This document shows positions 11,000 through 18,132 of a stretch of 64,000 nt of DNA, one piece after another. How positions within the stretch are numbered: the stretch's first letter is position 1; each line of letters opens with the position of its first letter. Under the pieces are notes generated by a model that did not search any database, had not been told where the DNA came from, and saw only the letters and a program-made list of their open reading frames with translations. Origin of the DNA: Bryobacterales bacterium F-183 (GTDB taxonomy: Bacteria; Acidobacteriota; Terriglobia; Bryobacterales; Bryobacteraceae); contig AP025252.1 of NCBI GenBank assembly GCA_016865505.2, forward strand, positions 4,154,001-4,218,000, read 5' to 3'. The position numbers and the translations under genes are program-made.

Positions 11000-11917
11000 A
11001 TGCAAAAAAAGAAACTGGTAGCCTTCTGTCTGGGAATCGGCGCCGCCATGGGTGCCGAATCGCCGGACCTGGCGGCCCGCAAGCTGTTCTATCAGGACAA
11101 CCAACCGGAGCTGGTGTTCAAAGCCGTCGCCGTGTCCGCTAAAGCAACTCTGGTCGCAACTGCCGCACCCGCGCCGCGGCCCGCAGCCCTCAAGCCGGTT
11201 CCGCCAGCGAAGCTTCCGCCGAGCGCCAACATGTTGGCAGCAAAGGCAAAAGAAGCTCTTGCGCAGGCCGTTGCCGCCTACACCCCGGACGGTACCCCGG
11301 TCCGCAAGGCGCAGAACATGGGCGTCCGCTACAACGTCCTAAAGGTGAATCCGGAAACCGCGGACATCCAGGCCGTACCCGCCGACACCAACTTCAAGAA
11401 GGGTGACTGTTTGGCCATTCGCCTGTCTCCCAACCGCGGCGGCTTCCTCTACGTGTTCAACCAGGGTACGTCCGGCAAGTGGCAGCCGCTGCTCCCGTCG
11501 GAAGATCTGCCCGGCGAGCCCTCCACTGTGCGCGCGTATCAGGTGGTTACGATCCCCGGACAGAACTGCTTCGAGATGGATGACCCTGCCGGTGAAGAAC
11601 GCCTGTTCGTGATGATCACCGAAAAGCCGGAAGACGTGAAGAACATCGAAGAGATGCTGCAGATGATGAACAAGCCGGCCCAGCAGCCTGCTCCTGGAGC
11701 CCAGCCCCAGCGCAGCGAAGCGATGGTCCTCGCGATGAACAAGCTGTCGGACACCATCCAGGGCTTCCAAAACCAGCTCGCCAGCCGCGACATCAAAATC
11801 ACCCGCGTCAATCAACCCGCGTCCAAGACGGAACTGCCCTACACGGTGTATCTCACCAACACGGCAGCCTCGGCGAGCGACCGCTTGATTATGGAAATCA
11901 AGCTGAAGCACAACTAA
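11000..11917 (+). CDS. Exported DUF4384-like protein, first gene of caspase module
   Basis: 305 residues with a signal peptide of about 19 residues (KKLVAFCLGIGAAMGA), then an Ala/Pro-rich stretch (45-75). Residues about 95-210 look like a DUF4384-type beta domain: FKKGDCLAIRLSPNRGGFLY, then GKWQPLLPS and a Pro-Gly-containing strand region. Proteins of this type often sit beside caspase-like peptidases or Ser/Thr kinases and are thought to be extracytoplasmic sensor or structural parts. Near the C-terminus, residues 262-270 read SRDIKITRV, a motif that recurs in the next two proteins. GGAG lies about 9 nt before the ATG. The next gene begins 19 bp downstream, so the three genes are probably one operon. 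Confidence 0.82.
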   Translation: MQKKKLVAFCLGIGAAMGAESPDLAARKLFYQDNQPELVFKAVAVSAKATLVATAAPAPRPAALKPVPPAKLPPSANMLAAKAKEALAQAVAAYTPDGTPVRKAQNMGVRYNVLKVNPETADIQAVPADTNFKKGDCLAIRLSPNRGGFLYVFNQGTSGKWQPLLPSEDLPGEPSTVRAYQVVTIPGQNCFEMDDPAGEERLFVMITEKPEDVKNIEEMLQMMNKPAQQPAPGAQPQRSEAMVLAMNKLSDTIQGFQNQLASRDIKITRVNQPASKTELPYTVYLTNTAASASDRLIMEIKLKHN

Positions 11918-11936
11918 CTTGCCCGGAACAACAGCC

Positions 11937-12575
11937 ATGCGCTATCTACTTCTCTTCTGCCTGGGCGTCGCCGCGTTTGCTACCGACCGCGAGAGCTACG
12001 TCCAGGTCACGATGGAACGCAAGGACGGCAACGAGTGGAAGTCGCTCGACCCTCGCACCGTTCTCAACGCCGCAGACCGTATCCGCTTCAAGTTCGAAGC
12101 GAACTACACCGGCTTTCTGTACGTTTACGACAAGGCGAGCGACGGCTCTACCGAACGGCTGTTTCCTGGCTCCGGTGCGGACAACCGCATCGAAGCGGGC
12201 AAGGCCTACATCGTTCCGACGGACGGCTCCTTTGTCATCGACGGCCCCCCTGGCTTCGACGTCACCTACTGGATCCTGAGCCCGGAACCGCTAGCCCGCA
12301 TCCCAATGTTTGACGATGCACCCAAGGTTGCCAATCTGCCCTCCACCATCGTTCCCCGGTGTAAGGAAGGGCTCGTCGCCCGCGGGAGCAGCGGTTGCCT
12401 TGATGATCGCGCCGGCGCCCAGCAAACCAAGGACGCCTCAAAAATCGTTCCCAAAGCGGAATCCACACTCCGCGCTCGCAACATCAAGGTGGAAAAGGCC
12501 GGCGAAACTCGCATCGCCGCTCCTTCCTCCAAGTCTGCTCCCCTGATTTACGAATTCCGGGTGGCCCACAAATGA
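11937..12575 (+). CDS. Exported DUF4384-like protein, second gene of caspase module
   Basis: 212 residues from ATG 11937; an upstream in-frame TTG at 11919 would put six residues before the signal peptide and is less likely. The signal peptide MRYLLLFCLGVAAFA is clear. The mature protein carries the same type of domain as its neighbour: ADRIRFKFEANYTGFLYVYD, SGADNRIEAGKAYIVP and DGPPGFDVTYWILSPEP, the last resembling the end of DUF4384 domains. A linker with two Cys residues follows, then ARNIKVEKAGETR at residue 180, related to the SRDIKI motif of the other two proteins, and a final beta strand LIYEFRVAHK. The stop overlaps the ATG of the caspase gene (ATGA), which indicates translational coupling. 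Confidence 0.82.
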   Translation: MRYLLLFCLGVAAFATDRESYVQVTMERKDGNEWKSLDPRTVLNAADRIRFKFEANYTGFLYVYDKASDGSTERLFPGSGADNRIEAGKAYIVPTDGSFVIDGPPGFDVTYWILSPEPLARIPMFDDAPKVANLPSTIVPRCKEGLVARGSSGCLDDRAGAQQTKDASKIVPKAESTLRARNIKVEKAGETRIAAPSSKSAPLIYEFRVAHK

Positions 12576-14647
12576 GAACCCTCTCACTCGCCCTACTTGC
12601 CGGCCTGGCAGCGTTCGGACAGCAAGTCGCCGATCCTCTCGGTTCGCGGGACATCAAGATCAAGCGTGTTGCCTCGCCTACGGAACTTGGTCAGCAAGTG
12701 CGCACCCCACGTGGCTACGCTTTGGTCGTCGGCATCGGCAACTACAAGAACCTGCCGAATGACGAGTCGCTCAAATTCGCAGAGAGTGATGCCGAAGCCG
12801 TCTACCGTGTCTTAATCAGCCCGGACGGCGGTCGGATGGAACCCGAGAACGTCAAGAAACTGATCGGTTCCAAAGCCACCCTGGCCAACATCAAGGACGC
12901 CCTCGAAAACTGGCTCGTCAAAACAGCCAAAGAAGAAGACCGTGTCATTGTCTACTTCGCCGGACACGGCTTGGTTGACAAGAGCCGCGGCTACCTCGCC
13001 CCCTACGACGTCAGCAAAACCGACATCGCCAGCACTGGCTACCCCATGGACAAGCTCGGCTCCGTCCTGGGTCGTGACGTAAAGGCGGCCTGGAAGGTAC
13101 TCCTCACGGACGCCTGCCACTCCGGCAAGATCACGCCGGAAACCTCGCAGGAAGCCGTGTACGAGGGCCTGCAGAAGCTCCCCAAGAACTTCCTGACGTT
13201 GACCTCCAGCCGCGAATCCGAAGTCAGCTACGAAGATCCCAAACTCTCCACCGGTTTCGGTCTCTTCTCGTACTACCTCGTACAAGGCTGGCAGGGCCAG
13301 GCCGACGTCGATCCTCGCGACGGGATCATCACCGCAGACGAATTGATCGACTACGTTCGCAACGAAGTTCGCGCCTACGCTCGCACCAAAGGCGTCCGCC
13401 AGACCCCCACCGAACGTGGCGACTTCCCCTCCGAAATGTGGCTGGGCTTCAGTTCCGATCGTCGTGCCAAGCTGGTCAACGCATCCGCGCCGCAACTCAA
13501 CAATGGCGGCCTGATCGTTGAAGTGAACCTCGACGAAGTGGAAGTTTACATCGACGAAAAGCTGATCGGCAAAGCGTCGCCCGGCAAGGAACTCCGAGTC
13601 CCCGGCCTTTCTGCCGGACCTCACGTCGTCAAAGGCGTGCGCATGGGATACGACCCCGCGAGCAAAGAAGTCCTCGTCGTACCCGGCCAGGACGCCACCG
13701 TCTCCCTCCGCATCCAGTACAAGCGCAACATCAAGAAGACCGCCCAGGACTTCTACGACAAAGGCATGGAAATCTACGGCCGCCGCAAGAGCGAATCCGA
13801 TCTCAAGCAGGCCGCCGATTTCTTCAACAAAGCACTGAAAGAGGAGCCGCGCTACTCAGCCGCGGCCCTCGGTCTTTGCCTGACGCAGCAGATCTTGCAG
13901 GACACCGAAGGCGGCAAGAAGTCCTGCAAAAAGGCCCTCGACATCGACCCGGATTACGTTGAAGCTCGCGTCCAGTACGGCGCGTTGCTTGTCGAATCCG
14001 GTGACACCAGCGAGGCCATCCGTCAGCTTTCGGAAGCCACCGCGCGTGACACCAAAAACTCCCAGGCGTTTTCACACCTCGCCGAAGCCTTCCTCCTGGC
14101 CAAGTCGTACGACAAGGCCGAAGAAGCCGCCAACAAGTCGATTGAACTCAACCCGCGCAACTCCCAGGGATTCCTCTTCCGTGGCGACGCCCGCCGCATG
14201 CAGAAGAAGTTCCAGCCGGCGCTCGACGACTACAAAAAGTACCTCGAGATCGACAACTTCATCGCCCCCGTCTACCAAAAGGTCGGCGTAGCCCTGATCG
14301 GCTTTGGCCTCTCCCACCGCAATGCCGGACAGAAGCGAGTTTTCGCCACCCAGCGCTCCAGCGCGTACTTCGGCATGTGCGGCTGCGAAGCCGAACTCCA
14401 GAACTTCCTCCGCGCCCGCGAGTACTGCGAAAAAGCCATCAGCAACGACAAGAACGACGCCACCAGCTTCTATATGCTCGGCACCGTCTTCATGGACCTC
14501 TTCAATCGCGACAACCGCCGGGACTATCTGGTCCGTGCCCAGGAAAGCATCCAGCAGGCTCTCAGCATCAACCCCGATGCCGAGTTCGCCAAAGATGCCA
14601 AGCAGAATCTCGTACAGATTCGCGAGTTCCTGCCCCTCGTCCGCTAG
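12572..14647 (+). CDS. Exported caspase-like (C14) protein with PEGA and TPR domains
   Basis: 691 residues. A signal peptide (about 1-17) is followed by GSRDIKIKRV at 24-33 and then a caspase-fold peptidase (about 45-285). The catalytic His is in VYFAGHG near residue 132 and the catalytic Cys in LLTDACHSGK near residue 182; both are intact, so the enzyme should be active. Bacterial members of this family commonly cut after basic residues. Residues about 310-375 form a PEGA-type beta domain (VEVYIDEKLIGKASPG), and 385-680 are a run of tetratricopeptide repeats (YVEARVQYGALLVESGD and similar), a likely protein-binding arm. Export points to periplasmic or surface action. It overlaps the previous gene by 4 nt and closes the three-gene operon. 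Confidence 0.92.
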   Translation: MRTLSLALLAGLAAFGQQVADPLGSRDIKIKRVASPTELGQQVRTPRGYALVVGIGNYKNLPNDESLKFAESDAEAVYRVLISPDGGRMEPENVKKLIGSKATLANIKDALENWLVKTAKEEDRVIVYFAGHGLVDKSRGYLAPYDVSKTDIASTGYPMDKLGSVLGRDVKAAWKVLLTDACHSGKITPETSQEAVYEGLQKLPKNFLTLTSSRESEVSYEDPKLSTGFGLFSYYLVQGWQGQADVDPRDGIITADELIDYVRNEVRAYARTKGVRQTPTERGDFPSEMWLGFSSDRRAKLVNASAPQLNNGGLIVEVNLDEVEVYIDEKLIGKASPGKELRVPGLSAGPHVVKGVRMGYDPASKEVLVVPGQDATVSLRIQYKRNIKKTAQDFYDKGMEIYGRRKSESDLKQAADFFNKALKEEPRYSAAALGLCLTQQILQDTEGGKKSCKKALDIDPDYVEARVQYGALLVESGDTSEAIRQLSEATARDTKNSQAFSHLAEAFLLAKSYDKAEEAANKSIELNPRNSQGFLFRGDARRMQKKFQPALDDYKKYLEIDNFIAPVYQKVGVALIGFGLSHRNAGQKRVFATQRSSAYFGMCGCEAELQNFLRAREYCEKAISNDKNDATSFYMLGTVFMDLFNRDNRRDYLVRAQESIQQALSINPDAEFAKDAKQNLVQIREFLPLVR

Positions 14648-14979: not shown

Positions 14980-15435
14980 GTGGTAAAACCCCACTTTGTA
15001 CGTCGTCGGCTGGCTCCAGTGGCTGACGCGCGGGGCTACCGGGCCTTCCGCGAAAACGTGCGACGCGACTTTCGCAGGACCTGTGCCTATTGCCTGCTCG
15101 AAGAGATCTGGGCCGCCGGACTTGAGAACTTCGAGATCGACCATTTCCGCCCGAAGTCTCTTTTTCCCCGGCTCGAGAACAGCTACTACAACCTGTACTG
15201 GGCCTGTCACGTCTGCAATCGTCTGAAGCGTAATCACTGGCCATTGCCGGAATTGGCCGAACAAGGCTACATGTTCGTCGACCTGTGCGAATCAACCTTC
15301 GAGGAACACTTTGCACTGTTGGAAACTGGTGAGTGGCAGGCCAAAACCAAAGCGGCTGAATACACACTGGATTTGCTGCGGCTCAACCGTCCACACCTGG
15401 TTGCTTTGCGATTGCTCCTGGCGGAACTCCATTAA
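14980..15435 (+). CDS. HNH endonuclease
   Basis: 151 residues from a GTG start. The HNH fold is clear: CAYC near residue 36 and CHVC near 72 are the zinc-binding cysteine pairs, and FEIDHFRPKS near 50-59 supplies the catalytic His. YYNLYWACHVCNRLKRNHW is the typical downstream half of the motif. The N-terminus is basic (KPHFVRRRLAPV), suited to DNA binding. Such small HNH proteins include homing-like, McrA-like and defence nucleases; the sequence alone does not decide. It follows the small antitoxin-like gene by 10 bp and converges with the Ser/Thr kinase gene, whose stop codon is 3 bp away. Confidence 0.85.
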   Translation: MVKPHFVRRRLAPVADARGYRAFRENVRRDFRRTCAYCLLEEIWAAGLENFEIDHFRPKSLFPRLENSYYNLYWACHVCNRLKRNHWPLPELAEQGYMFVDLCESTFEEHFALLETGEWQAKTKAAEYTLDLLRLNRPHLVALRLLLAELH

Positions 15436-15438
15436 ATA

Positions 15439-18132
15439 CTAGACATCCAGCGCGTTCTCGCTGATCAACTTCCGCCCGCCTAACGCCCAGCGGAACGCCA
15501 GCAGACTCAGTACACCTAGCGCCGCAATCGCCACCAGACCGGACTCGCCATACCAAGCCCCCGGCTCAAACGCCATGTAGCAGCGCCGTGCTGTACCCGT
15601 CACCATCGACATCGTCACCAGCGCCAACAGCCCAAACCGCAATAGCACCACCACCACCGCGACGATGGACGCAAAGGAACTGATCAGGTTTAATCCCGTC
15701 GCCCCAGGCTCCAGCAGCGACGCGACCACCGTCACCACCAGCACCACCGCCGCCGCTATCCAATCCCGCCGGAAGACGATCTTTGCCAAGAACAACGCAA
15801 AGAAGTGCAGCATGGAGAACGACGCCGAGTTGATCGCATTCGCGAGCAAAGCGGCAATCGCGTACCGCATCCCCAACGTAGTCTTCAGATCAATGTTCGT
15901 CGGATCGTCGCCGCGCGTCAGCGCCGCCAGCGTGACACCAAAGTGGATCGCCGTCAGCAGCATTCCGATTCCCAGCCCAGCAAGTACATGTCCGCCAACG
16001 ACAGGGTTTCGAATCTGCCCTGCAAGCACCCGGCTCCAGGACACCAACGTTTGCGGCCACCGCCGCCGTACCGGAGGTTCCAGCGCCAGGTACAGCAGCC
16101 AGCACACCACACCAAAGATCACCGCGTGATGCGCGGCAATAAAGAACACAACAAACTCATCACCGGACGGTACATGATGCCCACCGATCAGTTGGATGCA
16201 TAAGTACGCCAGCACTACCGAAATACCCAGACGGAACGCCCCCGCGCGATCCCCACGATTGCGCTTCAGGTTGAACCGGGCAAAGAATACGACCGCGCCG
16301 ATAATGATCGAGATCAGCGCGCCGAACAAGTACCTCGCAGCCGGTGGCGGTCCTTCACTCGGACCTGGAGCCTCCATGCGAAACGCTCGGGTCCAAGGTC
16401 CAACGACGTCAAAGTACACCGGCTTGCCCCGCCACGATGCCGCCTCAACGCGCACTGGAACAGGCGGAGTACCGGCAAACTGCCCCTCCCACGCGACCCT
16501 CGCATCGAACCCTGCCAGTGGTTGCCATTTCGGTTCCACGGGTCGGAACTGAGTCATCTCAAGCCCGGCAAACCGGAAGAAGGGCGTCCAGTCCACCGGC
16601 GTAGTCACAGGAGGTGTCTCGTCCACCTGCGGCGGTACGATCTCCAGGGCCGTCAACCGTCCCTTCATGTCCAACTGGACCGTGGCCATATTCGTGATGT
16701 TCTGTGGCGGGTCCATCAATCCAACCAACCCGTCACTCATCACGTTATGAGCCACCATCATTCGTGGACTCTCGCGATACCAGAAGAACAACGCGCCCGG
16801 CCTCGCCTGATCCAAACCCGTCCAGCGCGTCTCCGGCGGCGTCGTTTCGTAACGATACCGAAGGTAATCGTGGTCCATGTAGATGCCCTGCGCCGTATCG
16901 ACGGGCTTATTCTGCAAGCCCGCACGCCTTACGATTCGCATGGCCCGCTCCTGGATCAACTCAGGGCTCATCTCCGGCTTGCTCAACCCGAAGTACGTCA
17001 CCTGCGGCGATAGCCAAACCACCAGGGCGAGGCTCGCAAAGAACAACACCAGCAATCCAACCGTCCAGGGAACCGGCAAGGACTCGGTCTCCCCGGCAGC
17101 CGCAACTAACTCTGGAGAAGGTGTTTCTCCAGCAGCCATCGCGGCGCCCAACGCATCACCCCCCGGCAACGCGCTGGCAATTGCCTTCGCCGATGCCGGA
17201 CGATCTTTTGGATCCGGCGCCAGGCAGCGCAAAATCACCCGCTCCACAGCTGGATGCAAATCGGCAATCTGCGTCGCCATCGAATCCGGCGCGCTGCTCA
17301 TCTGCTGCTCCCGTAACTCTTCCAGGCTCGCCGCCTCGAACGGCCGCTTGCCCGTGAAAATCTCGTACAGCACCAGCCCCAGCGAATACAAATCGCTCTT
17401 GACCGTAACCTCTTGCCCCGACAACTGCTCCGGCGCCATATACGCCGGTGTTCCACTGCGGATATCTGCGATCTGATCCGTGATCCCGGCCAAACCGAAA
17501 TCCATGATCCGCAGCGATCCCTTCTCGTCCAACATGATGTTGGCCGGCTTCAGGTCTCGATGCAGTACGCCGAGTTCATGCGCGGCCGCCAGACCCGCAC
17601 ACAACTGTCGGGACATTTCCGTTGCCTTAGTAGCTGGAATTCGCCCAATGCGCCGCAGCAGGGAATTCAAATCCTCCCCGCTGATGAACTCCATCGAGAT
17701 ATACGGTTGTCCGTTCAGATCGCCGATGTCGTACACCCGGCAAACATTCGGATGCGCAATCTGCCGCGCAATCTTGACTTCGTTCAAAAAGCGCGACATC
17801 GCCTTTTGATCTCCGGCCATCGATTCTGGCAGGAACTTCAACGCAACTGGCTGATTCAGCTTCAGGTCCGTGGCGCGATACACCTCGCCCATGCCGCCAC
17901 GACCCAGAATCGAGATAATGCGATAGCGCTGGCCCAGAATCGCGCCGGGCACAAACCGGCCCTCGTCCGCCGTGGTCGTGTTGGGGTCCCAGGAAACTCG
18001 CGTATCCGGTACAGAAACGGCCTGTGTGGGAGCTTCTGACGACGGCGTTTGTGAACTCGACACGCTGGTGCCGCAGGCCGGGCAAAAGCGGCTGGATTCC
18101 GGTACCTCGGCCGAGCACTTCGGGCAAACCAT
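15439..18132 (-). CDS. Membrane-bound Ser/Thr protein kinase with zinc ribbon
   Basis: 897 residues. A zinc ribbon opens the protein (CPKC at 3-6, CPAC at 17-20), followed by a low-complexity Ser/Thr linker. The Hanks-type kinase domain covers about 65-325: GRGGMGEVYRA (P-loop, near 76), VALKF (catalytic Lys), HRDLKPANIM (catalytic loop, near 195), DFGLAG (metal site) and GTPAYMAPEQ. One membrane segment lies near 360-380 (VGLLVLFFASLALVVWL). An extracytoplasmic part of about 250 residues follows, then seven or eight more membrane segments (for example LISIIIGAVVFFARF and FVVFFIAAHHAVIFGVV). The many C-terminal segments are unusual for this class and suggest a sensor or transport module. It diverges from a small membrane protein across 27 bp. 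Confidence 0.92.
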   Translation of the reverse strand: MVCPKCSAEVPESSRFCPACGTSVSSSQTPSSEAPTQAVSVPDTRVSWDPNTTTADEGRFVPGAILGQRYRIISILGRGGMGEVYRATDLKLNQPVALKFLPESMAGDQKAMSRFLNEVKIARQIAHPNVCRVYDIGDLNGQPYISMEFISGEDLNSLLRRIGRIPATKATEMSRQLCAGLAAAHELGVLHRDLKPANIMLDEKGSLRIMDFGLAGITDQIADIRSGTPAYMAPEQLSGQEVTVKSDLYSLGLVLYEIFTGKRPFEAASLEELREQQMSSAPDSMATQIADLHPAVERVILRCLAPDPKDRPASAKAIASALPGGDALGAAMAAGETPSPELVAAAGETESLPVPWTVGLLVLFFASLALVVWLSPQVTYFGLSKPEMSPELIQERAMRIVRRAGLQNKPVDTAQGIYMDHDYLRYRYETTPPETRWTGLDQARPGALFFWYRESPRMMVAHNVMSDGLVGLMDPPQNITNMATVQLDMKGRLTALEIVPPQVDETPPVTTPVDWTPFFRFAGLEMTQFRPVEPKWQPLAGFDARVAWEGQFAGTPPVPVRVEAASWRGKPVYFDVVGPWTRAFRMEAPGPSEGPPPAARYLFGALISIIIGAVVFFARFNLKRNRGDRAGAFRLGISVVLAYLCIQLIGGHHVPSGDEFVVFFIAAHHAVIFGVVCWLLYLALEPPVRRRWPQTLVSWSRVLAGQIRNPVVGGHVLAGLGIGMLLTAIHFGVTLAALTRGDDPTNIDLKTTLGMRYAIAALLANAINSASFSMLHFFALFLAKIVFRRDWIAAAVVLVVTVVASLLEPGATGLNLISSFASIVAVVVVLLRFGLLALVTMSMVTGTARRCYMAFEPGAWYGESGLVAIAALGVLSLLAFRWALGGRKLISENALDV

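Follow-up and report, generated by a model that had tools for sequence, protein, structure and literature searches.

An R-D-L-x-Φ element that co-varies between an exported caspase and its DUF4384 partner in Bryobacterales, and its possible role in docking

The three-gene locus and its shared element

The window, a stretch of 64,000 nucleotides from Bryobacterales bacterium F-183 (contig AP025252.1, positions 4,154,001 to 4,218,000), encodes on its forward strand three adjacent genes, here called A, B and C, for two exported DUF4384 proteins and an exported caspase-PEGA-TPR protein. A short element of the type R-D-L-x-Φ lies near the C-terminus of A and in the N-terminal tail of C, and the residues at its positions +4 and +5, counted from the Arg as position 0, change together in the two proteins. 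We regard it as about an even call that the C tail mimics the A strand and docks on a DUF4384 acceptor within an exported A-B-C assembly. The gene layout of the original prediction, with a 19-bp gap between A and B and a 4-bp ATGA overlap between B and C, is exact by the coordinates of the open reading frames (ORFs), and its three motif copies, SRDIKITRV (11783-11809), ARNIKVEKA (12474-12500) and SRDIKIKRV (12644-12670), were all found where it had placed them. Pfam agrees with its domain calls as well, assigning DUF4384 (PF14326, cut-off 27) to A with 42.2 bits and to B with 42.1 bits, and to C Peptidase_C14 (67.3 bits, cut-off 21.4), TPRs and, marginally, PEGA (21.3 bits, cut-off 20.8). Signal peptides of A, B and C were assigned by eye only. 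The main features are the following.

11000-11917, plus strand: gene A, exported DUF4384 protein of 305 amino acids (ORF, Pfam, signal peptide by eye)
11937-12575 (ATG start), plus strand: gene B, exported DUF4384 protein of 212 amino acids (ORF, Pfam, signal peptide by eye)
12572-14647, plus strand: gene C, exported caspase-PEGA-TPR protein of 691 amino acids (ORF, Pfam, structural model, signal peptide by eye)
11786-11809, plus strand: A strand RDIKITRV, with R263 at position 0, I267 at +4 and T268 at +5
12647-12670, plus strand: C tail RDIKIKRV, with R26 at position 0, I30 at +4 and K31 at +5; R26 and D27 invariant in 37/37 rows
12474-12500, plus strand: B copy ARNIKVEKA, a looser third copy (family counts)
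11069-11092, plus strand: N-terminal segment LAARKLFY of A after the signal peptide (family consensus LTARELFY); R27 invariant in 30/30 rows, F30 in at least 90%
11393-11629, plus strand: DUF4384 domain of A, residues 132-210 (Pfam)
12710-13411, plus strand: caspase domain of C, residues 47-280 (Pfam)
12965-12967 and 13115-13117, plus strand: catalytic dyad of C, His132 and Cys182, both invariant in 37/37 aligned C proteins
13508-13717, plus strand: PEGA beta-domain of C, residues 313-382 (Pfam)
13733-14641, plus strand: TPR superhelix of C, about residues 388-690 (Pfam, model, fold comparison)

The best match between A and C, 8 of 9 residues, was reached by none of 1000 residue shuffles (maximum 7). 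The best matches of A with B (6 of 9) and of B with C (5 of 9) were reached in 126 and 999 of 1000 shuffles, hence the copy in B is not significant from the source genome alone. The family alignment places it at the corresponding position of a tail similar to A's (hhalign 86%). The original prediction had spoken of one motif in three otherwise different proteins. The resemblance of A and C is beyond chance; the description is inexact in that A and B share a homologous DUF4384 domain (hhalign 99.7%).

Across the family the motif is R-D-L-x-Φ, and the RDI of the window is a local variant. Counted over all loci, with caspases under 300 bits (among them L154, L155, L158 and L159) left out, the A rows (n=105) read RDL in 99, RDI in three, RNL and RGI in one each and a gap in one, so that position 0 is Arg in 104/105 and the remaining row is the gap. 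The C rows (n=135) read RDL in 129, RDI in three, RGI in one and a gap in two, the latter being the more distant caspases L156 and L157; four distant caspases below 300 bits that were inspected have other segments at this place. Among the B rows, Arg occupies position 0 in 73/95 and is missing in 22, with a gap in one further row. The first aligned set gave the same picture for A (R 33/33, D 32/33, L 32/33), for C (R and D 40/40, L 38/40) and for B (L 28/29, R 25/29, E or D 24/29), and in this set R and D of the C tail vary no more than the catalytic His and Cys, though the flanking residues differ widely. B was rejected as an equal third member, since conservation of its copy is mainly at the Leu and no same-register pair links it strongly to A or C. 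The LTARELFY segment of A was likewise rejected as a relative of the motif (hhalign probability 1.3 and 5.5%, no profile support); column 28 within this segment couples to A268, C31 and C88.

The source genome (6.28 Mb) holds a single strong copy of each gene. C was matched at an E-value of 1e-40 or better in 75/150 genomes of the order Bryobacterales, and strong profile matches to A and B were present in 75/75 and 69/75 of these genomes, respectively. At 84 C loci, a count that omits nine weaker C matches (6.6e-48 or weaker) and weaker A and B matches, both A and B lie at most 2.6 kb upstream on the same strand in 64, A only in six, B only in two and neither in 12. Thus, the motif keeps its place in homologous operons, near-invariant in the A tail and after the C signal peptide, and the genes stay together in related genomes, two expectations raised by the original prediction. 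A larger sample of the order gave C at 1e-100 in 127/257 genomes, and in a sample of the phylum 9/297 genomes, the source genome included, matched C at 1e-60. Of 304 relatives retrieved by the C profile, the best 80 come almost entirely from Acidobacteriota, many of them from Bryobacterales or Bryobacteraceae; in a genus mate, C is 96% identical and has one internal stop. The family alignments used 36/39 C, 29/32 A and 27/28 B listed references. A class of orphan C genes (L098, L099, L101, L184, L186 and L187) has a conserved RDLILAPN tail and no adjoining A or B; in the genomes G018, G049 and G139 of this class, A is located elsewhere in the genome.

Structural models assign the element different states in the two proteins. 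In the C model (predicted local distance difference test, pLDDT, 85.4) the caspase, beta-domain and TPR parts are ordered and the motif-bearing residues 15-41 fall below pLDDT 50. The A model (pLDDT 74.8) has predicted strands at 265-270, 282-287 and 295-304, the first of them inside the motif, and the A tail reaches block-mean pLDDT values of 74-92. Residues about 105-305 of A align over Ig-like folds, with a weak best Z of 5.5, and no convincing solved relative of A was among the folds returned by the comparisons. Profile comparison of the A tail with the C N-terminus gave 80% over 15 columns (hhalign). Hence, the R-D-L-x-Φ segment is predicted to be a strand that finishes the DUF4384 domain of A and a disordered free tail in C. 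These models agree with the docking strand suggested by the original prediction, with the refinement that A forms the predicted strand within its own domain whereas C holds the segment in a free tail.

Co-variation of the A strand with the C tail

Two sets of operons were compared. The first, again without caspases under 300 bits, began with 126 C proteins, which were reduced to 105 by identical ends and to 78 with an A gene; the later set comprised 60 C proteins, 30 of which were already included. Of the 30 additional ones, 27 came with an A gene, and 26 operons were added once L298 had been dropped for a gap in A at the motif. These include close relatives of the first set and are not fully independent. 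When the operons are placed side by side, Phe at A+4 is mostly matched by Tyr or Phe in C, and Ile or Val in A by Ile or Val. By mutual information (MI) with average product correction (APC), the pairs +4/+4 and +5/+5 rank first and second both among 146,510 A x C pairs in all 104 operons and among 145,530 pairs in the first 78. In the 26 later operons alone they rank 24 and 20, respectively, of 150,396, and the +4 classes agree in 25/26. An aromatic residue at +4 was found in both proteins in 51 of the 104 operons, in A only in seven, in C only in one and in neither in 45. Operon L190 has altered both copies, to SRGIIRETV in A and QRGIVREG in C, and its B kept SREL.

The co-variation that the original prediction had suggested looking for between all three proteins was obtained for A with C and not for B. 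The best corrected ranks of same-register pairs involving B were weak (3,669 of 112,612 for B with C, 1,319 of 47,616 for A with B). Among all inter-protein pairs of A, B and C, A267-C30 is the strongest (z 7.8), with A267-B97 fifth, A268-C88 seventh and A189-C30 eighth. Since tail and strand changed together, they probably fit the same docking site. Direct pairing of the A strand with the C tail in register was considered and rejected; it is unlikely because Glu would face Glu at +5 in 59/78 operons.

The phylogenetic background was taken into account with a Pagel-type likelihood ratio (LR), compared with random column pairs that have a balanced two-way split, motif columns excluded. The LR of A+4 with C+4 was 17.1 on the 78 operons, where none of 160 controls reaches it (highest 15.9), and 20.7 on the 89 operons that also have B (0/140 controls). 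In the 78 operons, position +5 gave 15.8 when scored as Glu and 4.4 when scored as Thr, and position +2 gave 9.5. On 104 operons, the LRs of 17.0 at +4 and of 16.3 for +5 as Glu were each reached by 1/150 controls. According to parsimony on the 78 operons, two changes are shared at +5. The coupling of A with C is thus more than clade structure, yet it rests on few events.

A rather improbable alternative is that the coupling is a phylogenetic effect, both copies having drifted with their clade through shared ancestry or composition. It agrees with the few independent changes, none of which parsimony places on the same branch at +4, and with unremarkable raw MI ranks. Furthermore, identical residues share codons in 262/452 cases within operons compared to a mean of 0.53 between operons (maximum 0.575 in 200 shuffles), a slight excess as expected from shared codon bias or rare exchange. 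However, all column pairs share one history, and still +4/+4 and +5/+5 come out first and second of 146,510 after correction; moreover, only 0/160, 1/150 and 0/140 controls reach the tree-aware LR at +4. Recent gene conversion was rejected, with codons of the window differing at four identical residues and codon sharing barely above the between-operon level, though single events could have happened.

Two DUF4384 positions follow the +4 class.

11564-11566, plus strand: Asn189 of A, whose column is coupled to +4 in A as well as in C
12225-12227, plus strand: Gly97 of B, aligned with A Asn189 by hhalign; Gly in 54/54 operons with an aromatic A+4

A189 is the column best coupled to the +4 positions of A and C, with z 6.8 and 5.5 in the 89 operons and 6.5 and 4.3 in the 104. 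It is Gly in 41/58 operons with an aromatic A+4 and never aromatic there, and Tyr, Phe or His in 23/46 with a non-aromatic A+4 (104 operons), combinations that would make steric sense. B97 behaves similarly in the 89 operons: against the complete set of Gly with an aromatic A+4, only 8/35 operons with a non-aromatic A+4 have Gly, and for C+4 the corresponding counts are 50/50 and 12/39, respectively. B's own +4 does not track B97 in these operons (Fisher 0.29). In the tree-aware test on the 89 operons, A189 as aromatic gave LRs of 18.2 with A+4 (0/140 controls) and 14.6 with C+4 (1/140), A189 as Gly 17.3 with A+4 (0/140), and B97 as Gly 15.3 with A+4 (1/140) and 7.0 with B+4 (20/140).

Proposed docking of the tail and competing explanations

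The reading we put forward is that A, B and C may form an exported signalling or protease assembly, in which the C tail would be a mimic of A's R-D-L-x-Φ strand and would dock on the acceptor site used by that strand, on A and/or B, by strand addition or a donor-strand-type exchange. Docking could tether the caspase and make its activity depend on the stimulus sensed by the DUF4384 proteins, whatever that is. Such mimicry accounts for the predicted folds, for the like-with-like co-variation and for the pattern at A189 and B97; the main acceptor would be A or B, and docking could either activate or silence the protease. A more specific version is tentative, and we lean against it: the RDLxΦ tail might compete with or replace the partner strand and so hold or switch the caspase, and strand exchange of the protease with sensor proteins, in one lineage with the outer domain of a kinase, would pass the signal on outside the cytoplasm.

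Several observations weigh against docking on a DUF4384 acceptor. The raw MI ranks in the 78 operons are only 8,172 for +4/+4 and 21,367 for +5/+5 of 145,530, and entropy-normalised corrected MI places the two pairs at 80 and 7, respectively. In the 89-operon set with B, +5/+5 reaches only z 4.9, and +5 as Thr gave an LR of 4.3 on 104 operons, which 79/150 controls reach. Parsimony on the 78 operons counts four changes at +4 in A and seven in C, with none on the same branch, and the effective number of sequences is about 66, so independent changes are few. At +4, 8/104 operons are discordant, both kinase fusions (see below) among them, and the sister-genus operon L261 pairs RDI in A with RDL in C. 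Furthermore, the LR of A189 as Gly with C+4 was reached by 12/140 controls on 89 operons (LR 8.6) and by 22/150 on 104, and that of B97 as Gly with C+4 by 5/140 on the 89 operons (LR 10.6). The close linkage of A+4 with C+4 prevents a separation of direct from indirect coupling with A189 and B97, and B97 tracks A+4 better than C+4. The structural models of A and C are monomers from shallow alignments (30 rows for A, 37 for C). Among 19 A-type proteins that are not directly upstream of a C, 13 keep R-D-[LMI], therefore the strand does not need this caspase; the count omits two proteins, one of them cut off and the other immediately upstream of a C. Finally, L158, a 1135-aa caspase about 1 kb from an RDL protein, is without the tail motif. 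In the eight discordant operons, A189, and B97 where present, resemble the class of A+4.

Strict Leu/Ile co-variation at +2 was also considered and rejected, L261 being mixed and genome G124 pairing an RDI protein with an RDL orphan C. RDI occurs in both A and C in the window and in L181, and L110 has RDI in C and in a convergent DUF4384 neighbour. The +2 pair ranks first only by the normalised measure (78 operons) and on three operons, which is a hint only, and it is too invariant to be scored in the 104-operon set. In G124, the orphan C (L108, RDLARD) and the unlinked DUF4384 protein (L172, RDIKRD) lie on different contigs. The two share Arg at +4 and Asp at +5, a single case noticed post hoc.

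The co-variation could also arise if the segment were a protease recognition site, as the original prediction had offered, with C cleaving its own N-tail and the A tail after Arg and with shared primed-side pockets causing the like-with-like changes, since two substrates of one active site would co-vary in this way, too. We consider this unlikely. In its favour, all aligned A and C rows extending to the motif have Arg at position 0, the RGI variant included, and basic residues at P1 are preferred by non-metazoan C14 proteases (PMC5756287). C columns 201, 225 and 297 are moreover weakly coupled to both +4 positions and C88 to both +5 positions. However, the segment in A begins a predicted strand within a fold, 22/95 B rows lack the Arg, and the strongest column shared by the +4 positions is A189 in DUF4384; the pattern at B97 would be left unexplained.

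Similarly unlikely is that the A strand and the C tail both dock on a common third receptor, either another envelope protein or the PEGA/TPR part of C, in which case A189 would be coupled only through A's own fold. A single site used by both would be enough for like-with-like co-variation, short peptides are often bound in TPR grooves, and the top column shared by the +5 positions is C88 (z 5.7 and 4.5). This view has difficulties with B97 and A189, which are among the strongest inter-protein couplings.

Kinase fusions also bear on docking to a DUF4384 acceptor. In L152 (4152-5951) and L153 (4162-5961), from another family of the phylum, a Ser/Thr kinase is fused to DUF4384 and an RDL tail, and each fusion gene precedes C and overlaps it by 4 bp; between the kinase and DUF4384 parts, a hydrophobic segment passes the threshold in L152 and not in L153. 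The upstream proteins of L192 and L194 (737 and 786 aa) have one hydrophobic segment and a similar RDL-type tail. In L179, a kinase precedes C, and its C-terminus matches the A profile (9e-13), not Pfam DUF4384, and is without RDL. In the kinase fusions the same docking might connect the exported caspase to the outer domain of the kinase. As the strand is retained without an adjoining C, it belongs to the DUF4384 protein and the C tail looks like the copy. RDL or RDM DUF4384 proteins were also seen in L162, L165 and L170 near weak caspase-profile matches (3e-10, 4e-14 and 3e-6), and these caspase-like genes had no RDL in the N-terminal residues inspected.

Related systems and neighbouring observations

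Little is known about what exported bacterial caspases and DUF4384 do and how they are controlled. The finding offers a concrete partner pair with a putative docking element of about six residues, in which +4 swaps that pair Phe/Tyr with Gly and Ile/Val with Tyr/His are directly testable, and one element ties DUF4384 kinases to caspases. In donor-strand complementation of chaperone-usher pili, the free N-terminal extension of one subunit completes the Ig-like fold of another. The free tail of C would likewise supply a strand to an Ig-like fold, if the proposed docking is correct; here, the acceptor fold is already supplied with a strand of that sequence by its own chain.

C resembles the orthocaspases and metacaspases (Peptidase C14) in its caspase domain with the His132-Cys182 dyad and in its TPR repeats. 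A survey of prokaryotic caspase homologues and their operons reports that Solibacter and Koribacter have its Xanthomonas-type metacaspase, which in many cases comes with TPRs, and names the TPR type in Acidobacteria; the accessible portion of this survey names no module of the present kind (PMC3501461). What sets C apart is the conserved RDL tail that follows its apparent signal peptide, together with two DUF4384 partner genes. Some pseudo-orthocaspases end in a DUF4384 domain, which is said to accompany N-terminal kinases (PMC6426788), and cyanobacterial orthocaspases contain the domain as well (PMC7475262). Here, by contrast, the caspase and the DUF4384 domains are on different exported proteins, and a C-terminal strand of the DUF4384 partner coevolves with the caspase tail. 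Our literature search, limited in coverage, returned no description of this module, motif or docking.

C may share with the MALT1 paracaspase the order of a caspase followed by an Ig-like domain: Foldseek matched chain 8v4x_C at E 1.6e-9 and, for the caspase alone, chain 3v4o_A at E 5.5e-8 (template modelling score 0.73 by target). C differs by its PEGA and TPR parts, and a root-mean-square deviation near 14 over caspase plus Ig means that the arrangement differs. The likeness consists of fold matches only, carries no sequence-level membership and does not imply homology of PEGA and Ig3. C scored 89.1 bits with the NCBIfam model NF047832 (EACC1-associated caspase), below its cut-off of 140, and in a scan of A to C with the PADLOC models of anti-phage systems it matched the generic caspase at 1.6e-16, A and B giving nothing up to 0.01.

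B contains two invariant cysteines in the family alignment, C142 and C154, perhaps forming a disulphide. Downstream of the module, a zinc-ribbon Ser/Thr kinase is encoded on the minus strand (15439-18132), in which Pfam DUF4384 was not matched up to E 1, and between it and C lies a gene (14980-15435) for a small HNH-endonuclease-like protein (Pfam 27 bits, cut-off 21.4).

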